DNA of 64,000 nt from Caulobacter sp. (GTDB lineage: Bacteria; Pseudomonadota; Alphaproteobacteria; Caulobacterales; Caulobacteraceae), in assembly GCA_030680355.1 (NCBI GenBank), contig JAUXVF010000022.1, positions 124,001 through 188,000 on the forward strand, read 5' to 3'. The notes beneath the pieces are model-generated. The model was not told where the DNA came from and searched no databases. It was given only the letters and a program-made list of their open reading frames with translations. Below, piece by piece: positions 3,937 to 56,477 of this stretch (position 1 is its first letter; the number at the start of each line of letters is the position of its first letter). A program made the translations under genes and the position numbers.

Positions 3937-3961
3937 GGAACGACCTGGCGGTCTGAACGTT
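3937..3961 (+). promoter_or_regulatory. EcfG/SigT promoter, GGAAC-N16-CGTT
   Basis: GGAAC at 3937-3941 and CGTT at 3958-3961, 16 bases apart. It begins only six bases after the superoxide dismutase stop and points at the DUF1328 gene, 50 bases downstream. Confidence 0.85.
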
Positions 3962-4011
3962 GTTAGAGAGAGGGGCGATCTGGCCCTTACGCAAGCTTCG
4001 GAGGACCCAAT

Positions 4012-4182
4012 ATGCTCAGGTGGGCGCTCATTTTTCTCGTCGTGGCGCTGGTCGCCGCCGTCCTCGGCTTCGGCGGCCTCGCCGGAACTGCGGTTGGCAT
4101 CGCCAAGCTGCTGTTCTTCATCTTCATCGTCCTGTTCCTGGTGTCGGCCGTGATGCACCTGGTCCGAGGACGCGGCGCCTAG
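4012..4182 (+). CDS. DUF1328 small membrane protein
   Basis: 56 residues beginning [19 protein letters not shown] and consisting of two hydrophobic helices joined by a Gly-rich turn ([14 protein letters not shown]), ending with a basic tail (HLVRGRGA). This is the DUF1328 (YtjA) pattern, a tiny inner-membrane protein family of unknown function that is often stress induced. GGAGGA at 4000-4005 is six bases before the ATG. It has its own EcfG promoter (3937-3961) and a hairpin terminator (4213-4241), so it is a single-gene stress unit. Confidence 0.85.
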
Positions 4183-4212
4183 CGCGCCCGACAATCGACT
4201 AAGTTAGAGAGG

Positions 4213-4241
4213 CGGCGGCGGGGCATCCCGTCGCCGTTTTT
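4213..4241 (+). terminator. Rho-independent terminator after DUF1328 gene
   Basis: A 10-bp stem (4213-4222 with 4227-4236, one G-U pair) closes a GCAT loop and is followed by TTTTT at 4237-4241. It ends transcription of the DUF1328 gene just before the convergent phosphoesterase stop codon at 4248. Confidence 0.8.
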
Positions 4242-4247
4242 CGTGGC

Positions 4248-5042
4248 TCAGCCGGCCCGCGGGCGGCGATCCATCGACCAGGTTCGCCAGGCCTCGAAAT
4301 GGGACCCGGTCCAAGCCAGGGCGGTGACCCGAACGGTGTCGGACTCGACCTCAAGACTGTTGAACCCGATCGGCGCCCCGCGCTCCCGGATCGACAGCGT
4401 GCTGGCGCCGATGGCCCAGGTTCGCCCGTCGCCGCCCGGATAGGGCAGGGCGAAGGGAGCATGCACATGACCGGTGAGCACCAGATCGACCTTGGCGCGG
4501 GCAAAGGTCTCCGCCGCCGCCCGGCCGCCCCGGACCCGACCGCTCATCGGGGCGCCGATCATCTCGATCAGGGGATGGTGGCAGGCCACGATCCTCAGGG
4601 CGCCGGGCGCCGCGCCGGCCAGGGTTTGCGCCGCCGCGGAGGCCTGGCCGGCCGAGATCGCGCCCTTTGACCAGTTCAATCGCACCTGGACTCCGCGCGC
4701 GGTGTTGACCGAAGCGACGGCAAGGCCCGGCCGCTCGAAGGCCCCGCGAGGCAGGTCCCCGAAATACCGCTCATAGCGCCGCCAGGGCGCGAACAGTCGC
4801 TTGGCGAGATTGAAATAGGGCGTGTCATGATTGCCGGGCACGACAAGGGTTTCGCAGGCGAGCCCGTTGATCCATTGCCGGGCGGCCTCGAACTCCGGCC
4901 GGGCCCCCTCGCGGGTGACATCGCCGGTGATCAGGGTCAGGCCGGGCTGGTGTTCGGCGATCCAGGCGCCGGCGGCGTCCACGGCGGCGGCGTTCTCCCC
5001 TCCGAAATGGACGTCGGAGATATGGGCCAGGCGCAGCGTCAC
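4248..5042 (-). CDS. calcineurin-like metallophosphoesterase
   Basis: 264 residues with the binuclear metallophosphoesterase motifs in order: DVHFGG near residue 10, GDVTREG near 40, GNHDTPY near 70, HHPLIE near 155 and TGHVHAP near 190. These bind two metal ions and hydrolyse phosphomono- or diesters; the actual substrate is unknown. No signal peptide is evident, so it is probably cytoplasmic. Its ATG overlaps the stop codon of the upstream lipid kinase gene by four bases (ATGA), which indicates translational coupling. The pair is read from an EcfG promoter at 5994-6019, which suggests a role in lipid or nucleotide turnover under stress; that role is inference. Confidence 0.85.
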   Translation of the reverse strand: MTLRLAHISDVHFGGENAAAVDAAGAWIAEHQPGLTLITGDVTREGARPEFEAARQWINGLACETLVVPGNHDTPYFNLAKRLFAPWRRYERYFGDLPRGAFERPGLAVASVNTARGVQVRLNWSKGAISAGQASAAAQTLAGAAPGALRIVACHHPLIEMIGAPMSGRVRGGRAAAETFARAKVDLVLTGHVHAPFALPYPGGDGRTWAIGASTLSIRERGAPIGFNSLEVESDTVRVTALAWTGSHFEAWRTWSMDRRPRAG

Positions 5043-5950
5043 GTCGCCGTCTCCGGCTCGGCGGACTCGGCGGACTCGGCGGGGACGAGGGCGCGAAAGG
5101 CGGTGGGTCGAAAGCGGAAACTGACCGACGAGCCCAGCCGGACCGGTTCGCCGTCCAGCACCGCCGGGATCCGTCCGCCGGCGGAGACCCGGCCCTTGCG
5201 GATGCGGGCGACATCGACGGCGGGGTCGCCCCGCCAGTCGCCGAGGGCGGCCCGGAAGCCGAGCCGGAAAACATCCACGGCGCCGGCCGGATCAATCGCC
5301 GCCGCCTCGAGCCAGCCCTCATCGGCGGCCAGCTCACGCGACACCAGCGGACAGACGAGGGTCAGGGCCTCGGCCGTGTGCGGGCGTCCGCCGTCCAGGG
5401 AGTATCGGAGCGCGCCGGAAAAGGCGCGGCGGAGGGCGCGCCGACCGCGGGTCATCATGCGCCACAGATCGCCGTCCCGCGCCGCTTCCCGGGCCTCCGC
5501 CCAGAGGGCCGGAGAGCCGAGGATGGCCGCCACGTAGAAGGACCGGCCGTCGATCTCACCCCCGGAGACCCGTCTGGCCACGCCGCCGTCGAGGATGGCC
5601 GCCAGGGCGGTCTTCCAGTCGCGGTCGCCGTAGAGGGCCCGGGGCAGCATGTTCATGGTTCCGCCGGGCAGGGGCGCGACCAGCGGACCGCGCGGACCCG
5701 CCATTTCAGCGGCGGCCCGCGCAGTGCCGTCGCCGGCGACGACGATCAGGATATCGGGCTTTCCGTCCAAGGCCGCGCGCAGGCAGGCTTCGAGCCCCGC
5801 CTCGCCGGGGAAGGTGACGTCGCCGTCGACGCCATGTTCGGCCAGGATGCGCTTGACCTCCGCGACCGCGTCGGGCCCGGCGCTTCCCGATGCGGGATTG
5901 ACCACCGCCGCTACACGCCCCGGCGGCCGGGTCCTGGTCCCCCATTTCAC
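5039..5950 (-). CDS. diacylglycerol/lipid kinase family protein (DAGK catalytic domain)
   Basis: About 303 residues. The catalytic domain shows VNPASGSAG near the start (nucleotide-binding), VVAGDGTARAAAEM (the GDG ATP-binding motif) and PLPGGTMNMLPRALYG, all typical of the YegS/BmrU-type lipid kinases that phosphorylate diacylglycerol or related lipids. I chose the GTG at 5950 because GGGAG lies about ten bases upstream and because the stress promoter at 5994-6019 excludes the longer frame that runs back to 6250. Cytoplasmic and membrane-associated by family knowledge. It overlaps the downstream phosphoesterase gene by four bases. Confidence 0.82.
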   Translation of the reverse strand: MKWGTRTRPPGRVAAVVNPASGSAGPDAVAEVKRILAEHGVDGDVTFPGEAGLEACLRAALDGKPDILIVVAGDGTARAAAEMAGPRGPLVAPLPGGTMNMLPRALYGDRDWKTALAAILDGGVARRVSGGEIDGRSFYVAAILGSPALWAEAREAARDGDLWRMMTRGRRALRRAFSGALRYSLDGGRPHTAEALTLVCPLVSRELAADEGWLEAAAIDPAGAVDVFRLGFRAALGDWRGDPAVDVARIRKGRVSAGGRIPAVLDGEPVRLGSSVSFRFRPTAFRALVPAESAESAEPETAT

Positions 5951-5993
5951 GATGTGTCGTCTCCCGCGGCCGGTGCGGCCGATATGTCTGATC

Positions 5994-6019
5994 AACGGCC
6001 CGCGCCCCAGTCGGGTTCC
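5994..6019 (-). promoter_or_regulatory. EcfG/SigT promoter for the lipid kinase-phosphoesterase operon
   Basis: On the minus strand GGAAC (6019-6015) and CGTT (5997-5994) are 17 bases apart, 44 bases before the GTG start at 5950. Confidence 0.82.
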
Positions 6020-6025
6020 GACCAG

Positions 6026-6050
6026 GGAACCGCCATCGGTGCGAGGCGTT
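6026..6050 (+). promoter_or_regulatory. EcfG/SigT promoter for the glycine-zipper lipoprotein
   Basis: GGAAC at 6026-6030 and CGTT at 6047-6050, 16 bases apart, 42 bases before the ATG at 6093. A weaker minus-strand match (GGAAC 6052-6048, N16, GGTT 6031-6028) is interlocked with it. Confidence 0.85.
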
Positions 6051-6092
6051 CCGAAAGCTGGTGGAGGATCACCGGACTTCAAGGAGTGACTC

Positions 6093-6440
6093 ATGTACAA
6101 GACCCTGATTGCCGTGGCCGGCGCCGGTTTGCTCATGGCAGCCTGCACGACCACCGGAAATGTCGAACGTAACGCCGCGGGCGGCGCCGCGATCGGCGCC
6201 CTCGCCGGCGCCGTGATTGGCAACAACACCGGCAGCGGCGACGCTGGCAAGGGCGCCGCAATCGGCGCCGTCGCGGGCGGCGCGGCCGGCGCCTACAAGG
6301 GCTGCCGGGAAGACGGCGGCTGCGGCGCTGCCGACTCTGTCAACCGCAGGCAGTACTATGATCAGTCGGCTGGACGTTATTACTATTACGATTCAGCATC
6401 TGGCCGCTACTATTGGGAAGACGGTCGGCCCCGCAGCTGA
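6093..6440 (+). CDS. glycine-zipper lipoprotein, stress induced
   Basis: 115 residues. A signal sequence (MYKTLIAVAGAGLLMAAC) ends in a lipobox with Cys18, so an outer- or inner-membrane lipoprotein is expected. Two glycine-zipper repeats follow (GGAAIGALAGAVIG and GKGAAIGAVAGGAAGAYKG), then a Tyr-rich C-terminus with two similar units (SAGRYYYYD and SASGRYYWED). AAGGAG lies seven bases before the ATG. It has a dedicated EcfG promoter and a strong terminator, so it is an independent stress gene. Glycine-zipper proteins of this kind insert in or stabilise membranes; the exact role is not known. Confidence 0.85.
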   Translation: MYKTLIAVAGAGLLMAACTTTGNVERNAAGGAAIGALAGAVIGNNTGSGDAGKGAAIGAVAGGAAGAYKGCREDGGCGAADSVNRRQYYDQSAGRYYYYDSASGRYYWEDGRPRS

Positions 6441-6465
6441 TCACACCGCGATGACCTAGCCAATT

Positions 6466-6499
6466 CGGGCGGTCGACCAAGCGGTCGGCCGCCCGTTTT
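6466..6499 (+). terminator. Rho-independent terminator after the glycine-zipper gene
   Basis: A 13-bp stem (6466-6478 with 6483-6495, one mismatch/wobble) with an AAGC loop is followed by TTTT at 6496-6499. Confidence 0.85.
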
Positions 6500-6517
6500 G
6501 GTGTTTGGGGGAATGAG

Positions 6518-6961
6518 ATGAACAATCTTGAGCGTACCGCGATTGTCACCCTGGCGGCGCTGGTCCTGGCCAGTTGCGGCACGGTCTCCCGTTTCCAGCG
6601 GGTGTTCAGGCCGGCCGTCTGTGAAGACATGACCGTCTCGATCTATTTCCAGCGGGACTCAGCGGCCATCACGCCGGAGGCGCGGGCTTTGCTCGAGGGC
6701 GTCGGCGAACGGGCCAAGGGCTGCCTGCTCGGCGACGTCAATGTGGTGGGGCTGGCCGACGCCGTCGGCGCGGCCGACGTCAATCTCGCCCTGTCGATGA
6801 AGCGGGCCGAGGCGGTCAAGGCCGCGGTCGTCCGGGCCGGGTTCACCACCGTGGTCTTCCAGGTCGGCGCTTTGGGCGCGGCGGGCGCCCTTACCGACAG
6901 CGGCGCCGCCAATCCCCTGCACCGCAGGGCCGACGTGACCTTCCACATGCAGCCGCACTGA
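6518..6961 (+). CDS. OmpA-family C-terminal domain lipoprotein
   Basis: 147 residues. The N-terminus (NNLERTAIVTLAALVLASC) is a lipoprotein signal with Cys20. Residues about 35-145 form an OmpA-like peptidoglycan-binding fold: SIYFQRDSAAITPEARALLE corresponds to the usual YF..GSA.LT..A...L, and VVGLADAVGAADVNLALSMKRAEAVKAAV to the G..D..G....N..LS..RA..V segment; the terminal RRADVTF matches the RRV.I end. GGGGA precedes the ATG. It follows a terminator, has no EcfG box directly upstream, and its 3' end faces the small RNA candidate transcribed from the other strand. Confidence 0.83.
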   Translation: MNNLERTAIVTLAALVLASCGTVSRFQRVFRPAVCEDMTVSIYFQRDSAAITPEARALLEGVGERAKGCLLGDVNVVGLADAVGAADVNLALSMKRAEAVKAAVVRAGFTTVVFQVGALGAAGALTDSGAANPLHRRADVTFHMQPH

Positions 6962-6963
6962 GC

Positions 6964-7081
6964 GGCCGTGCTGGACCGGGTCAAGGGTCCGGCCTTAGGC
7001 GATAATCGGAGGAAAGGGTGCGGAGGCGGCAGGCCGGCTTTCGCCAGCCTCAAGTCGGGGGGGGCGTCGCCGCCTCCGCAA
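6964..7081 (-). ncRNA. gsrN: candidate GsrN-like general stress small RNA
   Basis: A perfect EcfG promoter on the minus strand (7112-7088) points into a 300-base stretch without a credible minus-strand gene. The predicted RNA starts near 7081. Positions 7080-7069 and 7030-7019 form a 12-bp perfect stem; inside it are a run of eight C (7064-7057) and a GAAA-loop hairpin (7049-7032). After the stem comes a pyrimidine-rich stretch (CCTTTCCTCC, about 7016-7007) able to pair with ribosome-binding sites. In Caulobacter the EcfG-dependent sRNA GsrN acts through a 5' C-rich loop, for example on katG mRNA, and as I recall sits near the stress locus. The 3' end is uncertain; a bulged hairpin at 6995-6964 is the outer limit I propose, without a clear U-tract. 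Confidence 0.65.
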
Positions 7082-7087
7082 ATTCAA

Positions 7088-7112
7088 AACGCCACTGCCT
7101 GACTTTGGTTCC
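7088..7112 (-). promoter_or_regulatory. EcfG/SigT promoter of the small RNA candidate
   Basis: Minus strand GGAAC (7112-7108) and CGTT (7091-7088) are separated by 16 bases. No open reading frame with a ribosome-binding site follows it, only the structured region 7081-6964. Confidence 0.85.
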
Positions 7113-7264
7113 CGCCTGACGAGAATTATTGTCGCCCGGCCCGTTTCTGACGCCGGCAAAGGGCTGGCGGCCATCGATGGCTGTTATTTACGCTATCGCG
7201 CAGACGCCGACCGACGAAATTTCGCCGGCCGGCGCCATCGCCCCTGTCCGGATCCCGGATGAGG

Positions 7265-8059
7265 TCAGGCGGCTTTTCTGGAACGCCCCGGGTGGAAGAA
7301 CAGGGCCTGGCCGATGGCCGCCTTCACCGTTTCCGGCTGGAAGGGTTTGGTGATCAGGAAAGTCGGCTCGGGCCGCTCGCCGGTCAGCAGGCGTTCGGGG
7401 AACGCGGTGATGAAGATAACCGGCACATCGTAGTGGCCCAGGATGTCCTTCACCGCATCGATGCCGGAAGAGCCGTCGGCCAGTTGAATGTCCGCCAGCA
7501 CCAGCCCCGGCGCCCTGCGGGCGACGGCCTGGATGGCTTCGTCGCGGGTCGTGGCGATATCGACAACGGTGTGACCCAGCTCCTTGACCAGCGCTTCGAT
7601 GTCGGCGGCGATCACGGGCTCGTCCTCGATGATCAGCACGTCGGTCGCCAGCTCCTCGTCGATTTCTCGCTGGGCCTCGGCGATCAGGCGTTCGGTATCG
7701 GCAAAATCGGTGTCGAGAATCTGCGCGGCTTCGCTGGGGGTGAATCCCTCGAGCGCGGTCAGCAGGAAGGCCTGCCGCGAGCGCGGCGCGATGCGCATCA
7801 GCCTCTGGCTCGGATCGCTGCCGACCTCGTCGGGGGTGCGGTCCTCGAGCCGGGCGCCGGAGGTGCCCCAGATGGCGTGAAACACATGATAGAGCCCGAC
7901 CCGCGGCGAGTAGCGGTTGTCGAGGGCTCGCTCGCCCTGCGCCAAGGCCTCGAGCGACAGTCGAACATAGTTGTCGCCGGCGGTCTGGCTGCCGGTTAGC
8001 GCCCGCGCATATCGGCGCATGTAGGGCAGATGCGGCCCAAGACGAGCAAGTAGACTCAT
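7265..8059 (-). CDS. phyR: PhyR, general stress response anti-anti-sigma response regulator
   Basis: 264 residues in two parts. Residues 1 to about 135 resemble an ECF sigma factor (SLLARLGPHLPYMRRYARALTG; later LTALEGFTPSEAAQIL) and mimic EcfG to bind NepR. Residues 140-264 form a receiver domain with acidic residues IIEDEP, phosphoacceptor Asp190 in LVLADIQLADG, and Lys in LITKPF. Phosphorylation exposes the sigma-like part, which then sequesters NepR and frees EcfG. The ATG at 8059 is chosen because GGGAGAG stands just before it; an upstream frame to 8095 lacks such a site. An EcfG promoter lies at 8162-8138, so the gene is under positive feedback. It is divergent from nepR-ecfG. Confidence 0.95.
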   Translation of the reverse strand: MSLLARLGPHLPYMRRYARALTGSQTAGDNYVRLSLEALAQGERALDNRYSPRVGLYHVFHAIWGTSGARLEDRTPDEVGSDPSQRLMRIAPRSRQAFLLTALEGFTPSEAAQILDTDFADTERLIAEAQREIDEELATDVLIIEDEPVIAADIEALVKELGHTVVDIATTRDEAIQAVARRAPGLVLADIQLADGSSGIDAVKDILGHYDVPVIFITAFPERLLTGERPEPTFLITKPFQPETVKAAIGQALFFHPGRSRKAA

Positions 8060-8137
8060 GATCTCTCCCGAAAAGTCGCCAACACCGGCGGGCATGCGGA
8101 TTTACGCGTGGCCGACGCGCGACTCCATTGGTCACTT

Positions 8138-8162
8138 AACGCGGCAGGCCGGCGCCGGTTCC
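8138..8162 (-). promoter_or_regulatory. EcfG/SigT promoter of phyR
   Basis: Minus strand GGAAC (8162-8158), 16 bases, CGTT (8141-8138), about 80 bases before the phyR ATG. Confidence 0.88.
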
Positions 8163-8203
8163 CACGCTATCGCATATGAGCCATCATGACGAACATCGTT
8201 ATG

Positions 8204-8228
8204 GGAACCGGCCGGGGAGCAGGGCGTT
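8204..8228 (+). promoter_or_regulatory. EcfG/SigT promoter of nepR-ecfG-phyK
   Basis: GGAAC 8204-8208, 16 bases, CGTT 8225-8228. It is divergent from the phyR promoter with 41 bases between the two -35 elements, giving autoregulation of the whole circuit. Confidence 0.88.
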
Positions 8229-8284: not shown

Positions 8285-8470
8285 ATGATCGAACACAGTC
8301 AAATGGATGAACGTCGCAAGAGCAACGCCCCGCTTGATGAGGCGCGGCTGCGCCAGAGGGCGATCGGCGTAAAGCTGAGACAGATGTTCGACGAAGTCGT
8401 CAACGAGCCGGTGCCGGACGAATTCCTGGATATCCTCAGGCGTGCGGACCGCAAAACCGGGGAGGGCTGA
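8285..8470 (+). CDS. nepR: NepR anti-sigma factor
   Basis: About 61 residues. The conserved NepR core is present: AIGVKLRQMFDEVVNEPVPDEFLDIL, the two amphipathic helices that wrap EcfG in unstressed cells and PhyR~P in stressed cells. The start is uncertain. I use the ATG at 8285, which gives the usual NepR length; a GTG at 8264 (with AAAGGGG only three bases away) and an ATG at 8303 are alternatives. The stop is one base before the ecfG ATG, so the inhibitor and its sigma factor are translated together. Expression from the EcfG promoter at 8204-8228 provides negative feedback. Confidence 0.9.
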   Translation: MIEHSQMDERRKSNAPLDEARLRQRAIGVKLRQMFDEVVNEPVPDEFLDILRRADRKTGEG

Positions 8471-8471
8471 G

Positions 8472-9083
8472 ATGGTCGCTTCTTCGGACGCCTCCGAGGG
8501 CTCCCTGGCCGCCGTCGTTCGAGACGGCGCCTTTCAGCGCGAGCTGGTCACGCTTATCCCGCATCTCCGGGCCTTTGCCCGCAGCCTGACCGGGGACGCG
8601 GCCGCCGCCGACGATCTCGCCCAGGACGCCATGATCAAGGCCTGGGGCGCGCGCGCCAGTTTCCAGATGGGCACCAACATGAAGGCCTGGACCTTCATGA
8701 TCCTGCGCAACCAGTTCTATTCCGACAAACGCCGCTCCTGGCGCCAGGTCCAGCTTGACCAGGAGGCCGCCGAACGCACCCTGATCGCGATCGACGATCC
8801 TGGATCGCCGCTGGCCCTGGATGAACTTCGCCAGGCCATGGCCATGCTGCCGCCCGAGCAGCGGGAGGCCATCACCCTCGTGGGCGCGGGCGGCTTCGCC
8901 TACGAAGAAGCCGCCGATATCTGCGGCTGCGCCGTCGGCACCGTGAAGAGCCGGGTCAGCCGGGCCCGCAAGGCGCTGCAGGAAATTCTCGAAAGCGGCA
9001 GCTACGATCGCGACGGCCGAAACGCCGGTGAGGCGATGAGTTCGATTATCGCGGACGCGGAGCGGCTCAGCGCCGTCCGGTGA
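8472..9083 (+). CDS. ecfG: EcfG-type (SigT) general stress ECF sigma factor
   Basis: 203 residues with the two ECF regions: sigma-2 at about residues 30-95 (FARSLTGDAAAADDLAQDAMIKAW) and sigma-4 at about 130-180 (LPPEQREAITLVGAGGFAYEEAA...GTVKSRVSRARKAL). It recognises the GGAAC-N16/17-CGTT promoters that surround it. The ATG at 8472 has GGAGGG seven bases upstream, inside the nepR end; a longer frame from 8442 overlaps nepR more and is less likely. Its last four bases overlap the GTG start of the kinase gene. Gene order phyR / nepR-ecfG-kinase is the classical alphaproteobacterial arrangement; Caulobacter calls this factor SigT. Confidence 0.95.
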   Translation: MVASSDASEGSLAAVVRDGAFQRELVTLIPHLRAFARSLTGDAAAADDLAQDAMIKAWGARASFQMGTNMKAWTFMILRNQFYSDKRRSWRQVQLDQEAAERTLIAIDDPGSPLALDELRQAMAMLPPEQREAITLVGAGGFAYEEAADICGCAVGTVKSRVSRARKALQEILESGSYDRDGRNAGEAMSSIIADAERLSAVR

Positions 9084-10774
9084 GCCGACTCGACCGGCTG
9101 CGATGGGGTCCGGCGACCACGATCCGGGTCCGGCTGGGCGTCGCCATGGCGGCTGCCCTGTTGCCGGTTCTTCTATTGGGGGCCGGACAGTCCCTGCTGG
9201 CCTACCAGCGGGAGTCGGCCAACCGTCAGGCCGTGCTGCAATCGGCGGCCCAGCGCAGCGCGGCCACGGCCCGGGCGCGCATGGAGGCGGCGGGCGTCCT
9301 GCTTGAAACGCTCGGGCCCGGCTCCGTGGGTCTGGACTGCTCCGCCCGCCTCAGCGATATCCGCCGCCGCCTGCCCGGCTACGCTAACCTGATCCGTTTC
9401 GACAGCCTTGGCCGTATCGCCTGTTCGGCGGCCAGCGCACCGGCCGACTCAGGTCGCCGTGATCGCGACTGGTTCCGCCGGCTGGCGGCCGGAGAGCGTA
9501 TGGTCGTCACGCTGGCGCCCGGCGCGGTCTATGCCGCCGAGCCCAGCCTGTTCACGGCCGCCCGCACCGACGAGCCCGGCGGCGGGTTCAACGTCCTGGC
9601 CGCCGTCATCCCGCTCTCCAGCCTCAGCCCGACCCTGGCCGACCGGTCCCTGCCCCACGGCGCCCAGGTCGCGATCGTCGACGCCCAGGGTCGCTTCCTG
9701 TCGGTGACCGACGAAAAGGCGTTTCCGCGCTCGGTGACCCGGTGGGTTGATCAGGCCGGGTCGCAGGGGTCGTTCCTCGGTTACGGTCTCGACCGGCGCC
9801 TGGTCCGCCGGGTCTATTCGGCCGCGCCGCTGGTCGGCGAGGGGCTTTTCGTCGTTCTGTCGGCCCCGTCGGCGGGCCTGTTCGCGTCTGCCTGGCTGGA
9901 CCCCCTGTCGAGCGTTGTCTTCCCGCTGATCGCCTTCGCGGTGGCCTTGCTGGCGGCTCTCTACGCCACTGAACGCGGGGTCGGGCGATGGATTGTCTAT
10001 CTACAGCGGATCGCGGCCATCTACGCCAAGGGCCGTTTCACGGTGCGGCCGATCCAGGTCGCGACGGCGCCGCCGGAAATTCGCGAGCTGGCCGCGACCC
10101 TGGACCATATGGCCACCACGATCATGGCCCGTGACGCCGCGCTGCACGACAATCTCGATCAGAAGGACGCGTTGATGCGCGAGATCCATCATCGGGTGAA
10201 GAACAACCTTCAGATCATCAGCTCGCTCATCAACCTGCAGGAACGGGCCCTCAGCGATCCCGCCGCCAGGACGGCGATGAGTGAGACCCGCCAGCGCATC
10301 GCCGCCCTGGCCCTGATCTATCGCGCCCTCTATCAAGGCAGCGATATCCAGCACGTCGACCTCAGGTCCTTCCTAGAGGATCTGACCGGCCAGCTGCTGA
10401 CCGGGGAGGCCGGCGTCCGGACCGAGGTTCGGGCCGACGCCGTGGTGATCGATCCCGACAAGCTCGCCCCCCTGGCCCTGTTCGCGGTCGAGGCGGTCAC
10501 CAACGCCCAGAAACATGCCTTCAAGGACGGCGGCGGCGTCCTCACCGTCACCTTCACCCTTGGCGAGGACGAGGCCGAGCTGGCGATCAGCGACGATGGC
10601 GGCGGCCGGGCGAGCTCGGGCGAGCCCCCCGTGGACGGCGGCGTCGGTCGGACCCTGATGACCGCCTTCGCCCGCCAACTGCGCGGTCGTACGAGCCTGA
10701 CCCCCAATGATCACGGCGGTCTGACCGCGCGGCTGGTCTTTCCCAGCGCAAACGTTTCAGGCGCCGGAACCTGA
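9080..10774 (+). CDS. phyK: PhyK-type HisKA_2 sensor histidine kinase
   Basis: 564 residues. A transmembrane helix at about 15-35 (VAMAAALLPVLLLGAG) and another at about 280-300 (VVFPLIAFAVALLAALY) enclose a periplasmic sensor domain of about 240 residues (CHASE/Cache-like; residues such as FDSLGRIACSA). A HAMP-like linker follows, then the HisKA_2 dimerisation domain with MREIHHRVKNNLQIISSLINLQ (phosphoacceptor His371 by the GTG-9080 numbering) and a HATPase domain with VEAVTNAQKHAF (N box) and ISDDGGG. It is expected to phosphorylate PhyR. The GTG start overlaps the ecfG stop. The signal it senses is not visible. Confidence 0.9.
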   Translation: MSRLDRLRWGPATTIRVRLGVAMAAALLPVLLLGAGQSLLAYQRESANRQAVLQSAAQRSAATARARMEAAGVLLETLGPGSVGLDCSARLSDIRRRLPGYANLIRFDSLGRIACSAASAPADSGRRDRDWFRRLAAGERMVVTLAPGAVYAAEPSLFTAARTDEPGGGFNVLAAVIPLSSLSPTLADRSLPHGAQVAIVDAQGRFLSVTDEKAFPRSVTRWVDQAGSQGSFLGYGLDRRLVRRVYSAAPLVGEGLFVVLSAPSAGLFASAWLDPLSSVVFPLIAFAVALLAALYATERGVGRWIVYLQRIAAIYAKGRFTVRPIQVATAPPEIRELAATLDHMATTIMARDAALHDNLDQKDALMREIHHRVKNNLQIISSLINLQERALSDPAARTAMSETRQRIAALALIYRALYQGSDIQHVDLRSFLEDLTGQLLTGEAGVRTEVRADAVVIDPDKLAPLALFAVEAVTNAQKHAFKDGGGVLTVTFTLGEDEAELAISDDGGGRASSGEPPVDGGVGRTLMTAFARQLRGRTSLTPNDHGGLTARLVFPSANVSGAGT

Positions 10775-56409: not shown

Positions 56410-56477
56410 GATCAACCCCTTTGGTGCGTCTCCAGTGAGAGAACGCCCGCCGGCTCGCGTTGTTCCGCCGGCCGTGG

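Follow-up and report, generated by a model that had tools for sequence, protein, structure and literature searches.

The GSR locus of the Caulobacter species studied here raises the question of what is transcribed from an EcfG-type promoter that lies between phyR and a gene for an OmpA-like lipoprotein. The original prediction had assigned a homologue of the small RNA GsrN to this site. The window, i.e. the whole stretch of 64,000 nucleotides that was analyzed, contains the following features around it; PhyR, NepR, EcfG, the sensor kinase and the lipoproteins encoded there have Pfam support.

6518–6961 (+): gene of an OmpA-like lipoprotein, convergent to gsrN (PF00691)
6974–7079 (−): gsrN, about 106 nt by homology (RF01529 match at 6974–7077)
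7088–7112 (−): EcfG (SigT)-type promoter of gsrN, exact match to GGAAC-N16-CGTT
7265–8095 (−): phyR, upstream of gsrN on the same strand (PhyR_sigma2, PhyR_sigma-like, Response_reg)
8285–8470 (+): nepR (PF18557 NepR)
8472–9083 (+): ecfG (sigT), sigma factor gene (Sigma70_r2, r4_2)
9080–10774 (+): sensor histidine kinase gene of the HisKA_2/HWE type (PF07568, PF07536)

A covariance-model search had been proposed as a check of the GsrN assignment, and the whole window was scanned with the Rfam models. The family RF01529 (“CC3552”) matched positions 6974–7077 on the minus strand with 79.1 bits (gathering score 50, E = 6e-11). This match covers the model entirely (1–106), but the last third of the window RNA fits it poorly. 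The locus is the sole RF01529 match at E ≤ 0.001 in its genome (G000). Two further matches between 6800 and 7300, to Atu_Ti1 (19.3 bits) and Bp2_287 (12.5 bits), scored far below the cut-offs of the respective families and were rejected.

GsrN is the small RNA ccna_R0081 of Caulobacter crescentus, credited to Landt 2008 by Tien et al. (2018, eLife, PMC5869019). According to that paper, the RNA contains an intrinsic terminator within nucleotides 59–106, is cut in the vicinity of C53 (ends T54 and T64), and base-pairs with katG mRNA at its 5′ end, the site there being GUCGGGG. The corresponding locus of C. vibrioides DSM 9893 (L035, genome G268) reproduces C53, T54, T64 and the 106-nt model end when nucleotide 1 is set to the G two bases before position 1 of the RF01529 model, and the katG leader of this strain carries GTCGGGG at position −39 relative to the start codon adopted. 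Because both the numbering and the katG site agree with published GsrN, RF01529 can be equated with GsrN, and the identity put forward for the window RNA is supported by a match above the cut-off of this family. A literature search under the name CC3552 found nothing, and a search for RF01529 or CCNA_R0081 found only Tien et al. (PMC5869019); judged by titles, no other paper centred on GsrN was found.

RF01529 matches were present in 72 of the 75 genomes of the genus and in 279 of 390 genomes of the family. In the order and the class, 44/249 and 3/385 genomes, respectively, had a match, all 44 and all 3 of them within Caulobacteraceae; these counts at all four ranks were made with stricter filters, by which weak matches are lost. 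The distribution agrees with the restriction of GsrN to Caulobacteraceae stated by Tien et al. (PMC5869019). For comparative analysis, we used 118 loci comprising all genus matches but G252 with its 38.4 bits (71 of 72), the 27 best-scoring loci of the Brevundimonas-group (g6), and 20 loci from other genera, the latter two sets being picks rather than random draws. Apparent second copies in the g6 genomes G064, G068, G107 and G174 scored 35–36.9 bits, which is below the cut-off; two of the four (L223 and L224) are near-identical and lack the C-run and the inner hairpin, and they were treated as chance matches. A contig scan with the exact pattern returned 23 stretches, of which 12 came from Caulobacter, Brevundimonas or an alphaproteobacterial bin (L023). 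The remaining 11, from other groups, were put down to chance, the pattern having 19 fixed letters.

The promoter claimed at 7112–7088 on the minus strand is exact with respect to GGAAC-N16-CGTT, letters that we adopted from the original prediction and take to be the EcfG (SigT) consensus. Six exact sites were counted in the 64-kb window, whereas 100 shuffles gave 0.35 on average (maximum 2). In the whole genome, there were 17 such sites versus 11 for a reversed control pattern, so that the motif alone is weak evidence genome-wide; however, five of the 17 genomic sites fall within 4.3 kb of the window (3937–8228), which represents a dense general-stress island. They precede genes for a DUF1328 small membrane protein (3937, +) and a glycine-zipper lipoprotein (6026, +), gsrN (7088, −), phyR (8138, −) and nepR-ecfG (8204, +). 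The sixth exact site of the window is located at 56442–56466 (−), amid overlapping open reading frames near 56 kb. In relatives, GGAAC was found at most 60 nt upstream of gsrN in all 118 loci, the window included. The promoter is exact in 75 of them, among these the window; in another 36 the spacer is 16 or 17 nt long and followed by xGTT, and the remaining 7 retain just GGAAC.

Downstream of its promoter, the RNA can be divided as follows.

7079 (−): predicted transcription start, nucleotide 1, 8 nt after CGTT
7019–7080 (−): 5′ module with closing stem P1 (7080–7069/7030–7019), C-rich loop and inner hairpin, from fold and covariation
7051–7068 (−): exposed loop GACG-C8-GACTTG, predicted to recognize targets; pattern kept in relatives
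7031–7050 (−): inner hairpin with GAAA loop, from the fold; tetraloop sequence not conserved
6991–7018 (−): linker containing CCTTTCCTCC; T64, the published end, falls on 7015 by numbering transfer
6973–6990 (−): 3′ hairpin GGACC/GGTCC at the usual place of the terminator, no T tract, from terminator scans

The start had been expected near 7081, but position 7079 fits better with the C. vibrioides numbering; we infer this nucleotide from the C. vibrioides copy, in which the spacing between CGTT and nucleotide 1 is 8 nt as in the window. By the same transfer, the published cleavage at C53/T54 would fall within the 3′ arm of P1, at 7025/7024.

The perfect 12-bp stem, the run of eight C and the GAAA hairpin had all been placed correctly, the C-run occupying 7064–7057 within the 18-nt loop. 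The 63-nt 5′ module folds with −40.9 kcal/mol (z = −4.64), and none of 200 shuffles was as good. The 118 genomes gave 103 distinct modules, in which 98.9% of the cells are paired (2038 of 2060), compared to a maximum of 1968 in 500 column shuffles, and both-sided changes occurred in 11 of the 20 pairs; this test used the window's own fold as the structure, and its shuffles ignore relatedness. The loop is near-invariant, with the pattern GACGC(6-10)GACTTGAG in 114/118 loci, whereas the GAAA tetraloop varies in sequence among the 103 modules. Conservation of the C-run and the stem in related genomes, the lack of which would have counted against the original prediction, was thus found, together with that of the promoter, across the 118 loci.

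The pattern of variation also bears on the idea that the EcfG transcript carries a short protein-coding gene, since a frame starting from TTG at 7053 is open over 136 amino acids in the window (6643–7053, −). However, the sequence varies in the manner of a paired RNA, and the frame extends across the OmpA-like gene in antisense orientation. Its length is not kept either: over the 114 loci with the TTG the median is 61.5 amino acids, and in 37 of them the frame spans at most 40. The first 106 nt of the window RNA contain no ATG or GTG, and one of these codons is found within the first 60 nt of the RNA in 35/118 loci. We consider a coding function next to excluded.

The 3′ part of the RNA differs from the 5′ module. 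Taken alone (6950–7012), it has an unremarkable fold (z = −1.63, 14 of 200 shuffles as good), and the linker and the 3′ hairpin of the window are divergent. The linker does contain CCTTTCCTCC, which had been proposed to pair with Shine-Dalgarno sequences, but CCTCC occurs there in only two of the 118 loci including the window; since the stretch is not conserved, such pairing is unsupported as a feature of the family. No terminator-like site was detected on either strand of 6700–7300, which by itself is unremarkable because shuffles average 0.5. By our own criterion, 113/118 loci have a terminator-like site at most 130 nt from the module, and the window is among the five without one. The four others also lie above the RF01529 cut-off, so a terminator is usual, not defining.

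One could read these data as a decayed gsrN, in which the promoter and the 5′ module remain while the 3′ end and terminator are lost and no defined RNA is made. The missing terminator with its T tract, the divergent linker and 3′ hairpin, and the draft status of the genome (90.87% complete) point in this direction. On the other hand, the promoter has stayed intact, as have the P1 stem and the loop, and a C. crescentus allele without nucleotides 59–106, and thus without the terminator, still yielded the 5′ isoform and restored peroxide survival, next to a run-on transcript of about 200 nt (PMC5869019). The terminator is therefore dispensable for the peroxide function described there, and decay appears very unlikely to us. 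The missing terminator may rather be a detail of this lineage, and read-through towards the OmpA-like gene is possible. An overlap of the 3′ end with this gene, as originally suspected, is not expected from the 106-nt length, which places the end at 6974 and leaves the open reading frame, ending at 6961, untouched; it would take read-through to reach it.

Most loci have phyR next to gsrN. Of the 113 loci with at least 1200 nt of flanking sequence, 102 carry it upstream in the same orientation (63/70 in the genus, 24/24 in g6, 15/19 in other genera). The OmpA-like gene is conserved beside gsrN in Caulobacter and in part of the other genera (79/90), but not in the g6 loci that were read: where the flank is 600 nt or longer, it converges within 250 nt in 65/70, 0/27 and 14/20 loci of the genus, g6 and other genera, respectively. 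A diacylglycerol-kinase query matched in 84/118 loci. Downstream of gsrN in C. vibrioides DSM 9893, the genes for the glycine-zipper lipoprotein, the DAG-kinase and the phosphoesterase are kept; no OmpA-like gene, phyR, nepR or ecfG was found in the stretches around gsrN of this strain.

That the RNA acts not in trans but as a cis-antisense regulator of the facing lipoprotein gene would fit this convergent neighbour in the genus and the lack of a terminator in the window. Nevertheless, g6 loci carry gsrN without the neighbour, searches near gsrN of C. vibrioides DSM 9893 (G268) and of G245 yielded no OmpA-like gene, and most of the 118 loci have the terminator-like site close to the module. 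Furthermore, GsrN of C. crescentus acts in trans (PMC5869019). We regard a purely cis-acting role as highly improbable.

The katG gene is present in the genome of the window, but neither GTCGGGG nor GACGGGG was found in positions −110 to 0 of its leader. Across the genus, 50 leaders out of 61 katG rows were examined, and 17 of the 50 contained one of the two sites at most 110 nt upstream of katG, where shuffles predict 2.2. The position is −39 to −47 for 14 of these 17 sites. Start codons were assigned by a simple Shine-Dalgarno rule, and some may be wrong (G260 and G238 are doubtful). The motif G(T/A)CGGGG is limited to a subset of Caulobacter katG leaders, e.g. L091 and L092, and 15 of the 17 leaders bearing it have in common a box that we take to be OxyR-like. 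In the window, pairing of the loop with the katG leader from −140 to +15 was no better than with shuffles (42 of 100 as good). Extension of the search back to the OxyR-like box revealed GGGGCGTCGC at −199, which is complementary to ten GsrN bases, two of them stem bases. This 10-nt match, found after the fact, was reached by 3/300 shuffles, and by 34/300 when the eight loop bases only were considered. In nine relatives, the best match in the katG leader differs from GGGGCGTCGC, and G265 shares the part GCGTCGC at −49. In the organism of the window, katG is probably not a target through the site known from C. crescentus.

The canonical loop is kept in 15 of 17 genus genomes that have gsrN, with its module among those read, and lack a katG match (10/11 at a completeness of at least 98%), where a missing katG may be an assembly gap, above all below 98%. 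As the loop persists in these genomes, its role in targeting katG is probably not what keeps it invariant. With the known site in 17/50 katG leaders in addition, the conserved job of GsrN probably lies in targets other than katG, and both observations, the intact loop in Caulobacter without a katG match and the known site in only part of the katG leaders, provide a testable point. Co-occurrence in the family (216 genomes with gsrN and katG, 63 with gsrN only, 51 with katG only, 60 with neither; Fisher p = 4e-9, partial katG matches counted) was not taken as evidence for a functional link because the genomes are related. A genome-wide search for the target pattern CAAGTCGGGG gave 10 sites, gsrN itself included, versus 21 for the reversed control; given this lack of enrichment, no target list was drawn.

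With family membership, promoter sequence, structure, loop conservation and synteny established, the locus is almost certainly best explained as gsrN of a Caulobacter species, transcribed by EcfG and acting through a sealed 5′ module whose loop would pair with mRNAs. Upon stress, PhyR frees EcfG from NepR. EcfG would then transcribe gsrN from GGAAC-N16-CGTT, the resulting RNA of about 106 nt would fold such that the sealed 5′ module presents the loop GACG-C8-GACUUG, and pairing of the loop with G-rich mRNA stretches would alter their translation or stability. An extended version of this model, which we consider unlikely, is that the lineage lost the GsrN terminator, resulting in stress-dependent antisense read-through into the OmpA-like gene. 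One EcfG promoter would in that case supply both a trans-acting 5′ module and a cis-antisense RNA, and the katG link would be absent or moved within the leader (GGGGCGUCGC).

In comparison with GsrN of C. crescentus as described by Tien et al. (PMC5869019), the window RNA has in common the EcfG/SigT promoter, the stem-sealed 5′ module, the C-rich loop, the inner hairpin, the linker and the length of about 106 nt. It differs in its run of eight C instead of six, in having no visible terminator, and in the katG leader without GUCGGGG, terminator and site both being present in C. crescentus. Moreover, gsrN adjoins GSR genes in the window, whereas it lies away from the GSR locus in C. crescentus (PMC5869019). 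This position is familiar from other members of the family: homologues adjoining the GSR locus in Caulobacter, Brevundimonas and Phenylobacterium were already in print in 2018 (PMC5869019, section 14 and legend of Fig. 9), and we found no difference between them, as far as they are described there, and the window in gene, place and structure. Judged from its sequence, the window RNA is an ordinary orthologue of a small RNA that is already known, and it adds one more example to those in which GsrN, as is usual in Caulobacteraceae, belongs to the stress locus.
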